This document shows, piece by piece, positions 47,941 through 56,061 of a stretch of 64,000 bases of DNA (the stretch's first letter is position 1; every line of letters begins with the position of its first letter). The stretch comes from Ruminococcaceae bacterium YAD3003 (lineage in GTDB: Bacteria; Bacillota; Clostridia; Saccharofermentanales; Saccharofermentanaceae). The notes beneath the pieces are model-generated. The model had not been told where the DNA came from, did not search any database, and worked only from the letters and a program-made list of their open reading frames with translations. A program made the position numbers and the translations under genes. The stretch covers positions 1 through 64,000 of the forward strand of contig FNPA01000009.1 in assembly GCA_900107185.1 (NCBI GenBank). The letters are read 5' to 3'.

Positions 47941-48375
47941 TCAGTTTACGCCGTCTGCGAGGAAGTCGATTGCTTTCAAATATCCGTCGAATCCTTCACC
48001 AATAATGGTTCTGGTTGCGTAATAGGATACATACGAGAGCTGGCGGAAAGATTCGCGCTCATCGACATGCGAAATGTGGACTTCGACAGTCGGTATTGAA
48101 ACTGCTTTGAGAGCGTCAAGGATCGCAACGGAAGTGTGCGTATATGCGCCCGGATTAATGACGATTCCGTCAACCTTATCGAAATAAGCCTGCTGGATGT
48201 AATCGACCAGGTCGCCTTCGTGATTGCTCTGGAGGCAGTTTACTTCAATGCCCTTCTCAGCGCAGTGTTTTTCAATAAGTGCAACGAGATCCTTATATGT
48301 TGAGGTGCCATAAATGTCCGGCTCTCTGATGCCGAGCATGTTGAGATTGGGGCCGTTAAGTACAAGTATCTTCAT
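47941..48375 (-). CDS. aroQ: 3-dehydroquinate dehydratase, type II
   Basis: 144 residues, the usual length of the dodecameric type II enzyme. [20 protein letters not shown] carries the conserved Asn and the flexible-lid Arg-Tyr region, [17 protein letters not shown] the substrate-binding Asn and catalytic-loop residues, and [15 protein letters not shown] the catalytic histidine. It removes water from 3-dehydroquinate (third step of the shikimate pathway). Last gene of the aromatic operon, one base after the fusion gene. Confidence 0.96.
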
Positions 48376-48376
48376 A

Positions 48377-49927
48377 TTATTTCAGCTCTCCCAGGATGTC
48401 TGCGACCGCCTTGTCGTAGAAGTCCTGCTTTTCTTCGAATCTGTCGTAGAAGAAACGGTAATCGCACCATGTCTCATACTTGTCCTTGCGCTGAGAATAG
48501 AGCTTCTCAACGCCGTGGAGTTGTGAGATCGGTCTGTTCTTATCGGTAAGAGCAGTGAGAGGTCGCTCTAAATAGAAAACGTTGGAATTGCAGCGCACAA
48601 AGAACTTATTGACGTCGCGTGTTACAATGCCGCCTCCGCATGAGATAACGAGTCCGCTCTGAGGCAGGAATTCTGCTGCTATCTCGCACTCCATCTCGCG
48701 GAAAGCATCTTCGCCCGGACCTGACAGAACTTCTGCAGGTGTCTGTCCGAATTTCTCAGCGAAAGCAATGTCGAGGTCGACCAATGTGCGGCCTGTTTCT
48801 TTCGCGATGTTCCTGGCAAGGAGAGACTTACCCGAACCGGGCATGCCGATGATGGTGATATTCTTCATGCGGTTCTCAAGGATTCTGATGACCTTCTCGA
48901 TCGCCTCTTCTGCCTCTGAAGGAATGCTCTTGTCAGGGTTGCCGAGTGCAGATGCGCCTTCGATGTCACCTGCAAAAATACGTGATGACTTATATGCCTG
49001 TGCAACAAGCATTGCGAGGCCGCCGCAGGTCTTGAGGCCGAGTTCTTCGGCATCCTGCAGGAATCTGGTTCTTGAAGGGTTATAGACTACGTCTGCACAA
49101 GCCTCAAGTGAAGAGAACTTTGTGAGGTCCAACAGTCTGTTATCTACCTTCGGGAACATACCGACAGGGGTGCAGTTTACGATGACCTGAGCGTCAGATG
49201 CCTTCTCGTAAACATTTGAATAATTGATCTCTGTCTCGAGGTCGCATGCGTAAGTTTCTGCTGCACCAAGAGTCTTGAGCGCGTAGAAGACTGCAGATGC
49301 TGCGCCGCCCGTACCAAGAACGAGCACCTTTTTGCCTGTAACGGAAATACCCTTTCTGTGGAGCATGTAGATGAATCCGAAATAGTCGGTGTTCCAGCCC
49401 TTTACCTTGCCGTCTTCGAAAAGGACGGTATTAACACTGCCTGTTGTGCTCGAAGCATCGTCAACTTCATCGCACATTGCGCATGCATTTTTCTTGTAGG
49501 GGATGGTAACGTTGAAGCCCTTGAAAACACCGCTCTTGAAGAGTTCTTCCAACTCCTCGGGTTCACGTTCGATTACTGAATATGAATATGAGGGATCGAA
49601 AAGATTATGGATCTCAGGTGAGTATGTGTGGGCAAGAGTTCTGCCCAAAACGCCGAACGCAGGTTTATTCTGGTGAACCTTGGAGATGTCCATGAGAGTC
49701 TTCATGAGGTCCTTAACATAAGGCTTACTCTCAAATCCGGCAATCTCTTCCAGGGCCTTGATCTTCTCCGCTTCTCTTGCAGGATCGTAGGTCTGGAGAC
49801 CCTTCGATCTTTTGTAGTTGCCGATTTCCCTGCTCGTCGCAACTCTTGCTTCCAGCAAATCGAGAATATCGCTGTCGATCTGGTCCAGCTTATCTCTGAG
49901 GTCCTTAAGTTCCAATCTCTCACTCAT
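48377..49927 (-). CDS. aroE-aroK: Trifunctional chorismate mutase - shikimate dehydrogenase - shikimate kinase
   Basis: 516 residues in three parts. Residues 1-90 are an AroQ-class chorismate mutase ([20 protein letters not shown], then [12 protein letters not shown]). About 93-345 are shikimate dehydrogenase AroE ([19 protein letters not shown], then FNVTIPYK with the catalytic lysine, and [15 protein letters not shown] for NADP). About 352-516 are shikimate kinase AroK with Walker [20 protein letters not shown] and SCGGGIV. One chain thus does pathway steps 4 and 5 and the first step after chorismate. I know two-domain versions; the triple order is unusual. It lies 15 bases after aroC in the operon. 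Confidence 0.93.
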
Positions 49928-49942
49928 GGGATCTTACCTCCG

Positions 49943-51034
49943 TTACATTGATACAAGCAGCAGATCGTAGAGAGCGATAGCTGCAGCGGCTTCAACAACA
50001 GGAACGGCGCGCGGTGCAACGCACGGATCATGCCTGCCTTCAATATTGATCGTAGTATTTTTATGTGCAGCCAAATCGACTGTCTCCTGTGATCTGGAGA
50101 TAGACGGTGTTGGCTTTAATGCAACATCGAAAACAATCGGCGCAACATCACCAAGGCTTATTCCGCCCTGGATTCCGCCGCTGTGATTTGTCTTAAGTGT
50201 AAGGTTGCCGTCATCGTCGAAAACGAACGAATCGTTGTTCTCAGAACCCTTGAGGTCCGAACCTTCAAAACCGTTTCCGAACTCGACGCCCTTAACTGCA
50301 GGAATCGCATAAAGAATCTGCGCGAGCTTTGCCTCGATACCATCGAAGATCGGTCCTCCGATTCCTTCCGGATATCCGTAAACAACGCACTCGATAACGC
50401 CTCCGACAGAGTCGCCTTCCATACGCGCTTCCTCGATCTTCGCCTTCATCTCTTCGCCCTTTGCATCGTCTACAACAGGAAACTCCTTGTCCTCGACAAC
50501 TGCCAGAGCATTTCTGAAAGAATCGTCGTTAACGCCGTGGTTGAAATAAGAATCGTCACTTACGCCTGCAACCTTTTTGAGGTGCGCACTGATCTGGATA
50601 CCTCTTTTATTGAGTTCCTGCAGCGCGATAGAACCTGCAATGCAGAGCGGTGCGGTCATTCTTCCGGAGAAGATTCCGCCGCCTGATTTGGATGCTTCGT
50701 CACCGTAGAGAAGTCTTGCCGCATAGTCAGCATGTGACGGTCTCGGGCAGTTGATTATCGAAGCATAATCCTTGGGTTTTGTATTTGTGTTAATGATGTA
50801 ACCGTGGAGCATTGCGCCGTTACGCTCGAAAATAACCTCGTCGGCTTCCTTTCGAGGGGTTGACCATGCATTCTTACCGGGCGCACGTCTGGCCATAAAA
50901 GCAGCTGTCTTCGCTGCATCGGGAGTAACATCTTCAGGAAGTCCGTTGATATATACACCGATTGCTTCGCTGTGTGACTCACCGTAGATCATTATGTCCA
51001 GGGCATCTCCCTGGTATGTGCTGCTGGTACTCAT
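49943..51034 (-). CDS. aroC: Chorismate synthase
   Basis: 363 residues. YGESHSEAIGVYINGLP is the N-terminal signature, RPSHADYAARLLYG and SGGGIFSGRMTAPLCIAGSI follow the FMN-site pattern, and the C-terminal INIEGRHDPCVAPRAVPV is the third family signature. It converts EPSP to chorismate using reduced FMN (seventh step). It starts 2 bases after the aroA stop region, in the compact operon. Confidence 0.96.
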   Translation of the reverse strand: MSTSSTYQGDALDIMIYGESHSEAIGVYINGLPEDVTPDAAKTAAFMARRAPGKNAWSTPRKEADEVIFERNGAMLHGYIINTNTKPKDYASIINCPRPSHADYAARLLYGDEASKSGGGIFSGRMTAPLCIAGSIALQELNKRGIQISAHLKKVAGVSDDSYFNHGVNDDSFRNALAVVEDKEFPVVDDAKGEEMKAKIEEARMEGDSVGGVIECVVYGYPEGIGGPIFDGIEAKLAQILYAIPAVKGVEFGNGFEGSDLKGSENNDSFVFDDDGNLTLKTNHSGGIQGGISLGDVAPIVFDVALKPTPSISRSQETVDLAAHKNTTINIEGRHDPCVAPRAVPVVEAAAAIALYDLLLVSM

Positions 51035-51036
51035 AA

Positions 51037-52278
51037 TCAGGTCATCTCCTCCAGTAAAACTCTCCTGAATTCAGGAAAGGATTTATTGAGGCAATCGATA
51101 TCATCTAATTCTATATCCCTGCCCGTGGCTGCGGCGCACAATACTGCCGCCATAGCCATTCTGTGATCGCCCGAAGAAGTAAGACTGATATCTTCAGGCA
51201 CTTTATTTCTATCTATATATTCTATCGTAATTTGGTCTTCTTCGAGCGTGACTTTTCCGCCTAATGCAGTGAGCATCTCGGTGATCGCCTTCGCCCTGTC
51301 GGACTCTTTAATACGAAGTCTCTTAATTCCTTTTAAAGTTGTCTGGTAAGCTCTGAACGCACCGACAACAGCCATGTACGGAACGATGTCGGGAATGTCG
51401 CTGCAGTCCATCTCAAGAATCTTTCTTACCGGATTAATGAGGCTGTCCTGCACGAAAACAGTGCTGCCCTCAGTGAGAAAAGTTGTGCCCGCCAGTTTCA
51501 GGAAATGCATGATCTCCCTGTCACCCTGGACAGATTCCATATTAAGACCTGTGACCTTGATTGAGCCGCCTCTAATAAGGCTGCCGAGGCAGAGCAAAAA
51601 TGCTCCGTTGCTCCAGTCACCTTCAACTTCAAATTCACCTGAAGGAACTGCATTTGCAGTTTTAGCAGGAACTTTAAACGTGTCACCTTCTCTTACAATG
51701 CTGATACCGTATTTTGCGAGAGCAGCAATCGTGAGTTCGATGTAATGGACAGATGCAATTCCGCCTGTGACTTCGATCGTTGATCCCTTATCGAAAGTAG
51801 CCAGCGCCATGAGCAGTCCGGAGATATACTGCGAAGAAACACTGCCGTCAATGACATATCGACCTGCGTCAATATTTCCTGTAACCGTTATTTCATTTGC
51901 TTCTGTGTCTTTGGTAATGACAACGCCAAAAGGCTTGAGGCATTCTTCTAATTCTGCGATAGGTCTCTCGATCAATCTTCCGCGTGTTTTGAAAACGAGC
52001 TTCTCTGTCTCAGAAGACTTCACCGCGAGTGCAACGGGGATCATGAACCTTAAGGTTGAACCGCTCTCGTTGCAGTTTAAGACTATCTCTTTTTCATTGC
52101 CTTCAAGTGCACGAAGGCATGATTTGGTAGCTCTGATATCATCGTTATCCTCAGGCGAGTCGTTCAGAAAATCCCCACGCGCACCAAGAATAAAGTTAAC
52201 TATAAGTTCCCTGTGATATACGGACTTTGAAGGCGGTGCCTTAACGTCCAGATTTAACTGTCTGCAAGAAATTCTCAT
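51037..52278 (-). CDS. aroA: 5-enolpyruvylshikimate-3-phosphate synthase
   Basis: 413 residues. Visible are the N-terminal APPSKSVYHRELI, NCNESGSTLRFMIPVAL (the phosphoenolpyruvate-site loop), RLRIKESDRAKAITEML and the C-terminal DHRMAMAAVLCAA. The N-terminal loop SGSTLRF corresponds to the GNAGTAxR loop of class I enzymes but reads differently, like several Clostridial variants. It condenses shikimate-3-phosphate with PEP (sixth step). It overlaps aroB by 4 bases. Confidence 0.94.
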   Translation of the reverse strand: MRISCRQLNLDVKAPPSKSVYHRELIVNFILGARGDFLNDSPEDNDDIRATKSCLRALEGNEKEIVLNCNESGSTLRFMIPVALAVKSSETEKLVFKTRGRLIERPIAELEECLKPFGVVITKDTEANEITVTGNIDAGRYVIDGSVSSQYISGLLMALATFDKGSTIEVTGGIASVHYIELTIAALAKYGISIVREGDTFKVPAKTANAVPSGEFEVEGDWSNGAFLLCLGSLIRGGSIKVTGLNMESVQGDREIMHFLKLAGTTFLTEGSTVFVQDSLINPVRKILEMDCSDIPDIVPYMAVVGAFRAYQTTLKGIKRLRIKESDRAKAITEMLTALGGKVTLEEDQITIEYIDRNKVPEDISLTSSGDHRMAMAAVLCAAATGRDIELDDIDCLNKSFPEFRRVLLEEMT

Positions 52279-53342
52279 ACTGTCAAAAACTCTAAGAACT
52301 CCTCTTTTGTCATCTTCTTGATCTCGGCCTCGCCGATCTTATTTACAAGTATAACCGATAAAGTATCGCCGCGCTTTTTCTTATCATTCAATGCGCCGTT
52401 TACGATGGCTTCGGGAGTAATGTTATCGGTTACGGGGAGCTTATAAAGCTTTAGAAGATTCTTCATCTTCTCTGCATCATTCTTATCGAGTGTTCCTGCT
52501 CTGACGCACGCATCCATAATGATACCCATACCCATCGCAACACATACACCGTGAGGCTTAGTAAAGCCGCTGTCACGTTCGATTACGTGACCTACTGTGT
52601 GACCGAAGTTCAATGTCTGACGTCTGCCGTTATCAGTCTCATCGGCACTGACAACTGATGCCTTATCTGAAACATTCATGTATACGATTTCTTCGAGGAG
52701 GTCCTCATCATCTCTGATGTTTCCGTTAGCCTTCTCAAGCTTATCGAACAGCGCAAGGTCCATGATGAACGCATGCTTTGTAACTTCGCCCATGCCTTCA
52801 GTGAACACTCCATCAGGAAGTGTCTTCAGAAATGACGTGTCTTCTAAAACGAGAGCCGGCTGCCAGAACGCACCTACCTGGTTCTTGCCCATCGGAATGT
52901 CGATTCCGGTCTTACCTCCGACCGATGCATCCACCATCGCAAGAAGTGATGTAGGAATCTGAATTACATCAATGCCGCGCAAAAATGTTGATGCAGCAAA
53001 TCCCGCCATATCTGTCGTTACTCCGCCGCCAAGACCTGCAACAATGTCAGTTCTTGTAAATCCCGCTTCGGCCATCTTATTCCACATGCCGGCGATTTCG
53101 TTGATATTCTTGTTCTGCTCGCCCGCTTCGAAAACATAACTGATTACTTCGAGGCCGATACTTTCGAGCTGGGAAGTTATCTTATCAAGATAAAGAGGCG
53201 CAACATTTGTCTCAGATACAACGAGCACCTTCATTGCCTTCGGGCAGAGCCTTTTTACTTCTGTGCCGAGCGAAGTGACCGCATCTTTGCCGATCAGGAC
53301 ATCGTATGTTTTGGATGCCGCAAGAACGTTAACAGTTCTCAT
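52275..53342 (-). CDS. aroB: 3-dehydroquinate synthase
   Basis: 355 residues with the NAD-binding GGGVTTDMAGFAASTFLRGI core, PTSLLAMVDASVGGKTGIDI, and zinc ligands expected in EVTKHAF, LNFGHTVGHVIE and KPHGVCVAMGM. It turns DAHP into 3-dehydroquinate (second step). It overlaps tyrA by 4 bases and aroA by 4 bases, so translation is likely coupled along the operon. Confidence 0.96.
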   Translation of the reverse strand: MRTVNVLAASKTYDVLIGKDAVTSLGTEVKRLCPKAMKVLVVSETNVAPLYLDKITSQLESIGLEVISYVFEAGEQNKNINEIAGMWNKMAEAGFTRTDIVAGLGGGVTTDMAGFAASTFLRGIDVIQIPTSLLAMVDASVGGKTGIDIPMGKNQVGAFWQPALVLEDTSFLKTLPDGVFTEGMGEVTKHAFIMDLALFDKLEKANGNIRDDEDLLEEIVYMNVSDKASVVSADETDNGRRQTLNFGHTVGHVIERDSGFTKPHGVCVAMGMGIIMDACVRAGTLDKNDAEKMKNLLKLYKLPVTDNITPEAIVNGALNDKKKRGDTLSVILVNKIGEAEIKKMTKEEFLEFLTV

Positions 53343-54184
53343 ATTCCGTCTACCTCTTCTTTGATCTTTCTGCCTTCATCGAGCAGATCTCTTAAGCCGT
53401 CAAAATCGTCATCGACAAGTGCCTGTCTGTATTTTGCGAGTTCTTCCTGGAGGTGGTCGATCTCAAAAATGAGGTTGTCCTTGTTTTCCAAAAAGAGTTG
53501 TGTCCACATCGTGGGGTTAAGCCATGCAACTCTGGTCATGTCCTTATATGAACCTGCTGAGAAGCCTTTGTGGTTTCTGGCAGAAGGGCTCTTGATGTAA
53601 GCGTTTGAGACGAGGTGTGCCATCTGCGAAGTGAACGCGATCATCTTGTCGTGTTCATCGGCATGCGAGAGATGGAAACTTCCGAAGCCGCAGGGTGAGA
53701 GGAGATCCTTTACCCTGTCGAGCAGGAACATATCGTCGAACCTCGGCGGTACGACTACCATCGGCGCACCGAAATACATGTCGCCTCTCGCGTGGCCCAT
53801 GCCGGAGAACTTCGTGCCTGCCATCGGGTGGCAGCCTACGAAAAGGAAACCGTTCTCTTTGGCGATCTCAAAACCCTTCTCACAAACGAGTCTTTTTGTA
53901 CCGCAGGCATCTATTACCAGGCCTTCCTTGTTGAAGTGCTCCTTGTGCTCTTCCATCCAGTTGATGGTAGCTTCGGGATACAGAGAGAGAATAACGATAT
54001 CGCATGTTCCGAGATTCTCATCTGTCAGCTCACCGTCAATGATGTGCTGCATCTGAGCCATCTGCGTAACGCTCTTCGTACGGTTCCAGCCGTAAACGAC
54101 TGAATTCTCTTCATTCTCCTTGTAAGCCTTCGCGAAAGAGGCACCGATAAGACCTAATCCGACTATGCCGACTGTTAAACCCAT
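53339..54184 (-). CDS. tyrA: Prephenate dehydrogenase
   Basis: 281 residues. The N-terminal VGIVGLGLIGASFAKAYKEN is the dinucleotide-binding site, GCHPMAGTKFSGMGHARGDM carries the catalytic histidine segment, and FTSQMAHLVSNAYIKSP with SAGSYKDMTRVAWLNPTMW is the helical dimer domain. No regulatory ACT domain follows, so tyrosine control must come from elsewhere, probably from the attenuator in the operon leader. It commits prephenate to tyrosine. No prephenate dehydratase is in the window. Confidence 0.94.
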   Translation of the reverse strand: MGLTVGIVGLGLIGASFAKAYKENEENSVVYGWNRTKSVTQMAQMQHIIDGELTDENLGTCDIVILSLYPEATINWMEEHKEHFNKEGLVIDACGTKRLVCEKGFEIAKENGFLFVGCHPMAGTKFSGMGHARGDMYFGAPMVVVPPRFDDMFLLDRVKDLLSPCGFGSFHLSHADEHDKMIAFTSQMAHLVSNAYIKSPSARNHKGFSAGSYKDMTRVAWLNPTMWTQLFLENKDNLIFEIDHLQEELAKYRQALVDDDFDGLRDLLDEGRKIKEEVDGI

Positions 54185-54247: not shown

Positions 54248-55246
54248 TTACAGAATACTTCTTGCCTTGTTGATAGCTTCCATAACCTCAGTGAACTGTG
54301 CAGGCGTGAGCTGCTGTGCTGCATCTGAGAGAGCCTTTTCAGGATTGCAGTGAACCTCGATTTCCAACGCGTCCGCACCTGAAACAACCGCTGCCATGGA
54401 CATCGGCTTGATGAGGTTGGACTTACCTGTAGCGTGTGAAGGGTCACCGACAACAGGAAGGTGTGTAATCTGCTTCAATACAGAGATTGCGCTCACATCG
54501 AAAGTATTTCTAGTGTATGTCTCGTATGTTCTGATACCCCTCTCGCAGAGGATTACATTGGGATTGCCCTCAGACATAATGTACTCGGCACTCATGAGGA
54601 GCTCCTTGATCGTTGCTGAGAGACCTCTCTTCAAAAGGACCGGCTTACCTGTCTTACCGAGCGCCTTCAAGAGATCGAAGTTCTGCATGTTTCTTGCACC
54701 GACCTGAAGGAAATCAACCTCTTCGAAAACAGGGATCTGCTCAGGGCTCATGATCTCAGAACAAATAGGAAGACCTGTTTCCTTCTTAGCTTCGAGAAGA
54801 AGTCTGATACCTTCCTCGTGGAGACCCTGGAAATCGTAAGGTGATGTTCTGGGCTTGAACGCACCGCCTCTGAGGATCGTTGCACCACATGCCTTAACTG
54901 CTCTGGCAGCATTCATGATCTGCTCTTCGCTCTCGACAGAGCAGGGACCTGCGATAACTGCGAAATTGCCGCCGCCGATCTTAACTCCTGAAACATCTAC
55001 GACAGTGTCTTCCGGATGGAACTTTCGATTTGCCTTCTTAAATGTCTCGGATACTCTTGTTACCTTCTCGATGATATCCAATCCCTGGAGCATATCGATA
55101 TCAACTGTTGATGTGTCGCCGATAAGACCCAGGACAGTGCAATACTCACCCTTTGATTCGTTGACCTTAAGGCCCTTATCTTCAAACCAAGCGATGAGGC
55201 TTGATATCTGCTCTCTTGTTGCTGTGTTCTTCAGTACTGCAATCAT
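54248..55246 (-). CDS. aroF: 3-deoxy-7-phosphoheptulonate (DAHP) synthase with N-terminal ferredoxin-like domain
   Basis: 332 residues. About 1-70 is a ferredoxin-like (ACT-type) domain ([20 protein letters not shown]), as in the feedback-regulated Thermotoga-type enzymes. The TIM barrel follows with [49 protein letters not shown] and [12 protein letters not shown]. It catalyses the first step from PEP and erythrose-4-phosphate. It is the first structural gene of the operon, preceded by a leader with terminator, and has a GAAAGGAGAAAG site before its start. Confidence 0.96.
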
Positions 55247-55304
55247 GTTTCTTTCTCCTTTTCGGGTTAGGATATCCCCTATTTGTCACCTGATTTGATT
55301 TGAA

Positions 55305-55343
55305 TAAAAAACGCTGCCGGGCATTTAGCGTACCCTGCAGCGT
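55305..55343 (-). terminator. Attenuator terminator of the aromatic operon
   Basis: On the minus strand ACGCTGCAGGG, a loop and CCCGGCAGCGT are followed by TTTTTTATT. It lies between the leader peptide and the aroF start, so it is conditional rather than the end of a gene. Confidence 0.92.
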
Positions 55344-55394
55344 TATTCAACTCAAATCATATCTTTGGTTTTCTTTGCGCCAGCAAAAGTCGCT

Positions 55395-55457
55395 TTAGTT
55401 CTTCTCCCTAAAGTAGTAATAATAGCTATACGCATAAAAGAAAACCGCAGTCTTCAT
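55395..55457 (-). CDS. Tyr/Phe-rich leader peptide of the aromatic operon
   Basis: A 20-codon frame on the minus strand reads MKTAVFFYAYSYYYYFREKN, stop TAA: six tyrosines and three phenylalanines in eleven positions. AAGGAGAG lies 8 bases before the ATG. It is followed by hairpins and by a terminator ahead of aroF. This is the pattern of pheL- or trpL-type attenuation: ribosome stalling at Tyr/Phe codons during shortage should keep the downstream terminator from forming. The flanking segments AACCGCAGT and ACTGCGGTT can pair and would enclose the ribosome site. Confidence 0.9.
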   Translation of the reverse strand: MKTAVFFYAYSYYYYFREKN

Positions 55458-55487
55458 AAGGAACTCTCCTTGAATTAAACTGCGGTT

Positions 55488-55516
55488 ATTAAATCACACC
55501 TTTGGGGATATTGCAA
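55488..55516 (-). promoter_or_regulatory. Promoter of the aromatic operon leader
   Basis: On the minus strand TTGCAA (55511-55516), a 17-base spacer and TTTAAT (55488-55493). Transcription would begin near 55481, about 24 bases before the leader ATG, at the first strand of the CCGCAGT hairpin. Confidence 0.65.
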
Positions 55517-55539
55517 CAACTAATACCACTTCAATAGGT

Positions 55540-56061
55540 TTATGCAAAATCTTCGAGTCCCGTCTTCTCGTGAATCAGTTCGACAACACTGTCAGGTTCC
55601 ATGTTGAGTGCAACCGCGATCTCGTTGTTCACTCTGTTTCTCGCATCGATCAGGGCGCGCTCGTCCTGGGCATTCAGATGCTTGCCTTCCTTAGCGAGCT
55701 TCTCAGCATGTCTGTTGATCAGGTAAATAAGACCAACGATGTCCTCACGGCTGCCGTTAACGATAATATCTGTAAATGAAGCCTTACGCTCGTTGCGGTC
55801 CTCGATCCAGCTGCAGTTATCAATGGGCAGCTTATCGATCAGAGCGATAGCCTCCTTCTTCGAAGCTACGGGTCTGATCCTGCTGACCTGCGCCTCGTTA
55901 TCAAGAGGCACGTAAACAAACTGGGATCTGGTTACAAAGAGAGGCTTCAGGACGTAATATTTCTGCGGTTTCTCTTTGAAAAAACTAATGTCTTTAATGT
56001 CATCAATCTGGCACACTCCGCTGCCTGCGTAAACGATGTTGTCACCTATTTTAAAGCCCAT
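55540..56061 (-). CDS. CarD-family transcriptional regulator
   Basis: 173 residues. The N-terminal KIGDNIVYAGSGVCQIDDIK is the RNA-polymerase-interacting domain of CarD/CdnL proteins (a Tudor-like fold shared with TRCF), followed by a helical C-terminal domain (VNGSREDIVGLIYLINRHAE, then DERALIDARNRVNNEIAVAL). Such proteins bind the polymerase beta subunit and modulate promoter opening. It stands alone just upstream of the aromatic operon leader, with AGGGAGG before its ATG. Confidence 0.9.
   Translation of the reverse strand: MGFKIGDNIVYAGSGVCQIDDIKDISFFKEKPQKYYVLKPLFVTRSQFVYVPLDNEAQVSRIRPVASKKEAIALIDKLPIDNCSWIEDRNERKASFTDIIVNGSREDIVGLIYLINRHAEKLAKEGKHLNAQDERALIDARNRVNNEIAVALNMEPDSVVELIHEKTGLEDFA

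Follow-up and report, generated by a model that had tools for sequence, protein, structure and literature searches.

What controls the entry of RNA polymerase into the aromatic biosynthesis genes of Ruminococcaceae bacterium YAD3003? The question is raised by a locus at 55305-55516 on the minus strand of contig FNPA01000009.1, 5' of aroF, within a window that is the whole stretch of DNA analyzed (64,000 nucleotides). On sequence evidence, we give a probability of about 0.93 to the reading that this locus is a ribosome-mediated (leader-peptide) transcription attenuator that senses Tyr and Phe and governs a complete shikimate operon. The features behind this reading are present in the sequence: a leader, its codon bias and conservation, a terminator, an antiterminator, the spacing between them, and the content of the operon, which is as follows.

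54248..55246, minus strand: aroF, DAHP synthase (type I, with a ferredoxin-like N-domain)
53339..54184, minus strand: tyrA, prephenate dehydrogenase
52275..53342, minus strand: aroB, 3-dehydroquinate synthase
51037..52278, minus strand: aroA, EPSP synthase
49943..51034, minus strand: aroC, chorismate synthase
48377..49927, minus strand: three-domain fusion of chorismate mutase, shikimate dehydrogenase (aroE), and shikimate kinase (aroK)
47941..48375, minus strand: aroQ, type II 3-dehydroquinate dehydratase (the sole type II dehydroquinase of the genome)

From this gene set it follows that all seven common shikimate steps are present together with prephenate dehydrogenase and chorismate mutase. 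The first-pass annotation had placed the seven steps and tyrA behind a single leader; the set is indeed complete, and the spacing (from tyrA onward, some neighboring genes overlap and the others are no more than about 15 bases apart) suggests that the genes are co-transcribed.

Between the upstream gene and aroF, the following elements for transcription and translation of a leader were located.

55540-56061, minus strand: carD-like gene, directly upstream of the attenuator
55511..55516, minus strand: -35 element TTGCAA (from sequence), 17 nt from the -10 element
55488..55496, minus strand: extended -10 element TGATTTAAT (from sequence), TGn type with hexamer TTTAAT
55466..55471, minus strand: Shine-Dalgarno sequence AAGGAG of the leader, 8 nt 5' of the ATG at 55457
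55395..55457, minus strand: leader peptide gene MKTAVFFYAYSYYYYFREKN, 20 codons, with the stop counted in the coordinates
55410..55442, minus strand: 11 control codons, 6 Tyr and 3 Phe (from sequence)

A simple promoter and terminator scan called neither element at this locus; the promoter was missed because the scan rule requires A at position 2 of the -10 hexamer, which here reads TTTAAT. In the upstream regions of congeneric relatives, TG[AT]TTTAAT is conserved at -10 and a perfect TTGACA is found at -35 in many; 55516-55488 is a putative promoter. The carD-like gene ends 24 nt 5' of the aro promoter, and its read-through would also cross the attenuator. The leader, which is presumably translated, reads F F Y A Y S Y Y Y Y F at codons 6-16 and has no family in NCBIfam or Pfam. 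In dinucleotide-preserving shuffles of the 300 nt upstream region, an open reading frame with nine aromatics in 11 codons never appeared (0/20,000), and one with eight appeared once (1/20,000). The 20-residue leader with six Tyr and three Phe in eleven codons that had been proposed at first pass was confirmed to the exact count, and the promoter, competing hairpins, and terminator proposed with it 5' of aroF were each located on the minus strand.

The RNA elements on which attenuation would depend are the following.

55485-55480 (CCGCAG) with 55450-55445 (CTGCGG), minus strand: 5' hairpin that encloses the leader Shine-Dalgarno sequence (sequence and folding)
55431..55446, minus strand: region 1 GGTTTTCTTTTATGCG, within the leader (sequence and folding)
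55377..55394, minus strand: region 2 AGCGACTTTTGCTGGCGC, its first nucleotide directly 3' of the stop codon; 5' strand of the antiterminator
55327..55343, minus strand: region 3, 5' arm and loop of the terminator; 3' strand of the antiterminator
55310..55344, minus strand: intrinsic terminator hairpin AACGCTGC..GCAGCGTT, about -19.7 kcal/mol
55303..55311, minus strand: U tract of the terminator (from sequence)

The fold of the 182-nt leader RNA was more stable than those of 200/200 dinucleotide shuffles (z about -4.3; -4.27). In this fold analysis, region 2 pairs with the 5' arm of the terminator, and the resulting antiterminator excludes the terminator. With a ribosome stalled in the control codons and the 3' arm not yet transcribed, the antiterminator is the minimum-energy structure (-18.2 kcal/mol). 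A ribosome at the stop codon leaves no more than a weak structure (-8.1 kcal/mol), and the terminator is what forms next; with no ribosome the 5' hairpin, a region 1 hairpin (region 1 pairs with 55380-55367 if the leader is untranslated), and the terminator coexist. Since the full terminator is the more stable of the two structures at equilibrium, switching between them must be kinetic.

Among close relatives of the window locus, the stem formed by regions 2 and 3 (AGCGACUUUUGCUGGCGC with ACGCUGCAGGGUACGCU) is G-U rich and interrupted by an internal loop, and between 0 and 8 of 100 shuffles pair equally well. Its columns are nearly invariant, too much so for the stem itself to reveal covariation in this clade, but the lineage of L010 has both sides altered together (UUUUGUUGC with GCAAGGG). 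In the sister clade (alignment A1, 22 congeners), the 2:3 stem joins GUGGUUUGUGC (region 2) to GCACGGAUCAC (region 3) over 11 bp. Here 97.9% of the alignment cells in the 2:3 stem are standard pairs; sliding the partner lowers this to 27-54%. One of the pairs swaps among UA, CG, and AU. In the terminator stem (3:4), 90.5% of the cells pair and four pairs are doubly changed. Since columns 75-79 are common to both stems, the two are mutually exclusive, and the covariation in this clade supports alternative, exclusive stems.

These elements suggest the following mechanism. RNA polymerase would initiate near 55480, and a ribosome would translate the 20-codon leader. Given its footprint, a ribosome would leave region 2 free when the last aromatic codon is in the A site, and would cover region 2 when it has reached the stop codon. 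With both Tyr-tRNA and Phe-tRNA charged, the ribosome would be expected at the stop codon, over region 2, the terminator would form, and transcription would stop before aroF. If either Tyr-tRNA or Phe-tRNA ran short, the ribosome would stall on the Tyr/Phe run and region 2, about 16 nt downstream of the last aromatic codon, would be free to pair with the 5' arm of the terminator before the 3' arm is made, letting the polymerase proceed into the genes from aroF to aroQ. An untranslated leader RNA would fold on itself and allow the terminator to form, making the default state off. The response to charged tRNA is what this arrangement of codons and stems would predict.

To follow the arrangement beyond one genome, three sets of aroF upstream regions were assembled: one from congeneric genomes, one comprising the 80 nearest GTDB loci, and one from a sample drawn evenly across the class. 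Of the congeneric loci, 41/42 have a leader in which 7 or more of 11 codons are aromatic, compared with 0/420 shuffles and 0/42 reverse strands. Specifically, the four codons nearest region 2 were Tyr or Phe in all 29 distinct congeneric leaders (29/29), with the first position of these codons invariant, the second exchanging A and T, and the third variable. Exchanges between F and Y and synonymous exchanges were common among congeneric leaders, and one leader (L014) carries additional in-frame Tyr codons. The lone exception (L008, genome G020) has a 29-nt deletion that takes most of the leader and destroys the frame, leaving MLLLLL with region 2 and the terminator still intact; it is a candidate for either a natural loss of the leader or an assembly error. 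The loss of the frame in relatives that keep the hairpins, which the first-pass annotation had named as evidence against a leader, was therefore not the pattern observed, either in the genus or across the class.

The position of the stop codon shifts by about 17 nt among congeners, and the nucleotides of region 2 stay constant: one leader (L018) runs through region 2 and ends in KVRVVCA before its stop, and another (L022) ends just before it. Region 2 is hence conserved as RNA. The stop codon lies at or within region 2, and an intrinsic terminator follows the leader in 40/41 congeners. Where the antiterminator outperformed shuffles (z below -2), 33/34 congeners had 14-19 nt separating region 2 from the last aromatic codon (median 16); the corresponding medians were 15 for the 80 nearest loci and 13.5 for the class.

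Runs of 11 codons with 6 or more aromatics occurred in 51/106 aroF upstream regions (300 nt) of the class sample, compared with 40/1060 shuffles and 4/106 reverse strands. A leader followed by a terminator preceded aroF in 49 of the 98 Clostridia genomes, belonging to 27 of 45 families. Measured against shuffles, antiterminator partners fell within the top 5% in 37/40, 34/55, and 29/48 cases across the three locus sets. Outside the genus, leader codons for Phe (579) outnumbered those for Tyr (449), and Trp codons were rare (25). No aromatic leader was found in the 16 aroF upstream regions from other families of the same order, and no Rfam family was found in those same-order regions that were scanned. 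What is conserved across the class is the coding frame rather than an RNA core. These distributions make it very likely that the aroF leader attenuator is a class-wide arrangement of Clostridia rather than an isolated exception. Five loci labelled Treponema, Bacteroidaceae, Lentisphaerae, or Thermoguttaceae (L037, L049, L065, L095, and L106) have a Clostridia-like aroF, several of them with an aromatic leader, and probably represent mis-binned metagenome contigs, or transfer.

The leader might also act on translation, with stalling exposing the ribosome binding site of aroF, as in the translational attenuation carried out by stalling leaders of the erm type. We regard this as very improbable given the position and nature of the 3:4 hairpin: it is a G+C-rich stem followed by the U tract at 55311-55303, it ends about 45 nt 5' of the aroF ribosome binding site (55260), which thus lies outside the hairpin, and a terminator of this kind occurs between control codons and aroF in 146/155 leader-bearing regions of all sets (12/150 in shuffles).

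Still less probable is that a T-box or another riboswitch for tRNA or a metabolite controls aroF and that the short frame is incidental. Firmicutes do commonly use T-boxes for aromatic genes, and this genome has them at trpE, trpD, pheS, and aspS. At the locus itself, however, no Rfam model matched: gathering-level matches in the whole window were limited to two tRNAs, the T-box covariance model (RF00230) was not matched upstream of aroF, and the conservation across the class is that of a frame, as described above. A T-box specifier here, the other finding that was to count against the leader from the start, was absent, and the same search recovered five T-boxes elsewhere in the genome as a positive control (L127, L128, L129, L130, and L131), 5' of trpE, pheS, an XRE/cupin-acyl-CoA ligase gene, trpD, and aspS, as named by reading the translated frames. 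Lowering the threshold to E values up to 1 in 55100-55700 brought up hits to snoRNA or Salmonella sRNA families that fell well short of the gathering level; being matches to eukaryotic or unrelated models, they were rejected as chance.

That the terminator belongs to the carD-like gene immediately upstream on the same strand, and that the leader is a free-standing small protein, we consider the least probable of these readings: promoter and leader intervene between that gene and the terminator, the terminator lies 3' of the leader and has a covarying antiterminator partner at the leader end, and the aromatic-only codon constraint suits control codons, not a protein.

The leader-peptide attenuator at aroF has a counterpart in another branch of the same genome. 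The pheA gene (chorismate mutase-prephenate dehydratase) has its own leader, with six Phe and zero Tyr codons, an antiterminator (GTTCACTGC:GCAGTGAAC), and a terminator.

L241, about 950-1165 (G000:C8, upstream of 78490): pheA leader MTNFAFTWRDFSFFAFTNRGN, which starts 6 nt after TATAAT

Among congeneric pheA genes, a Phe-rich leader starts 6-8 nt after TATAAT in 27 loci, this one included, and 26/27 of these leaders are without Tyr. Because of this short distance, the pheA leader is probably translated from a leaderless start. In 27/27 loci with a Phe leader, the 5' arm of the pheA terminator complements a region 2 close to the leader end; two further congeneric pheA genes whose upstream DNA was examined (L266 and L271) lack this arrangement. 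The codon content mirrors the branch: Tyr plus Phe codons precede the common pathway and tyrA, pheA has Phe alone, and the Trp branch uses T-boxes. One genome can therefore combine T-boxes and leader peptides inside one pathway. Beyond the aromatic genes, the hisZ-hisG stretch contained no His-rich open reading frame (the region 5' of hisZ was barely covered), and ilvD was not found in the genome.

Taken across the class, we lean slightly towards the view that leader-peptide attenuation, rather than the T-box, prevails in the common aromatic pathway of Clostridia and is possibly ancestral, with the three branches of one genome split by mechanism and codons. The aroF attenuator, which is absent from the RNA-family library searched (Rfam), would supply half of the sampled Clostridia genomes with a concrete, testable rule for the timing of aromatic amino acid synthesis. 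Ribosome-mediated attenuation requires a ribosome close behind RNA polymerase. In Bacillus subtilis, transcription reportedly outruns translation, as attributed to Johnson et al. 2020. If our reading is true, transcription and translation in Clostridia would be coupled tightly enough for RNA folding to depend on where the ribosome stands, in contrast to the uncoupled view of B. subtilis, and natural attenuators spread across the class make this coupling directly testable.

The mechanism is known in kind, and this instance and its breadth in Clostridia appear to be unreported in the available literature; searches of openly readable full texts turned up no mention of a Tyr/Phe leader ahead of aroF in this class. 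Enterobacterial pheL-pheA, trpL, and hisL are short leaders rich in codons for the product of the pathway, with regions 1-4. The first-pass annotation held that Firmicutes mostly rely on T-boxes or TRAP for aromatic genes; leader-peptide attenuation was nevertheless already known in Firmicutes at hisS/hisZ, ilv, and his genes, and at aroF in Acholeplasma. His leader attenuators were described at hisS/hisZ in bacilli (Naville and Gautheret 2010, PMC2965389) and his operon leaders in Peptostreptococcaceae, Erysipelotrichales, and the B. cereus group (PMC9413887). They resemble our locus in using a leader peptide, an antiterminator, and a terminator in place of T-boxes, and differ in responding to histidine and in occurring in few genomes, with no aroF leader in the text found. 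The leucine-rich attenuator peptide of ilv-leu in S. aureus, which has genetic support (Kaiser et al. 2018, PMC5794164), is likewise leader-peptide attenuation of a biosynthetic operon in Firmicutes, but for leucine and in Bacilli. Eight uORF candidates are given in a 2024 survey that covered 50 genomes; it treats ilvB and fthC, and its text has no mention of aroF.

A further close relative is uORFC-13-1, located 5' of aroF in Acholeplasma and unassigned environmental sequences only, with 24 representatives, "at least one" Phe codon, and attenuation proposed (Brewer et al. 2021, PMC8632094). Compared by its published description, it is similar in having a uORF with one or more Phe codons, a promoter, and a terminator before aroF; unlike it, the leaders described here have up to ten aromatic codons in eleven and occur class-wide in Clostridia. 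The T-box (RF00230) follows the same logic, in which a shortage of charged tRNA leads to antitermination, and serves the Trp branch of the same genome, whereas the aroF locus has no match to its model. On the one hand, the window leader shares with enterobacterial pheL, trpL, and hisL an exclusive antiterminator and terminator and a region 2 that lies under the ribosome at the stop codon. On the other hand, it differs from them in mixing Tyr and Phe codons, in acting on a single operon for the common shikimate pathway, and in belonging to the Clostridia.
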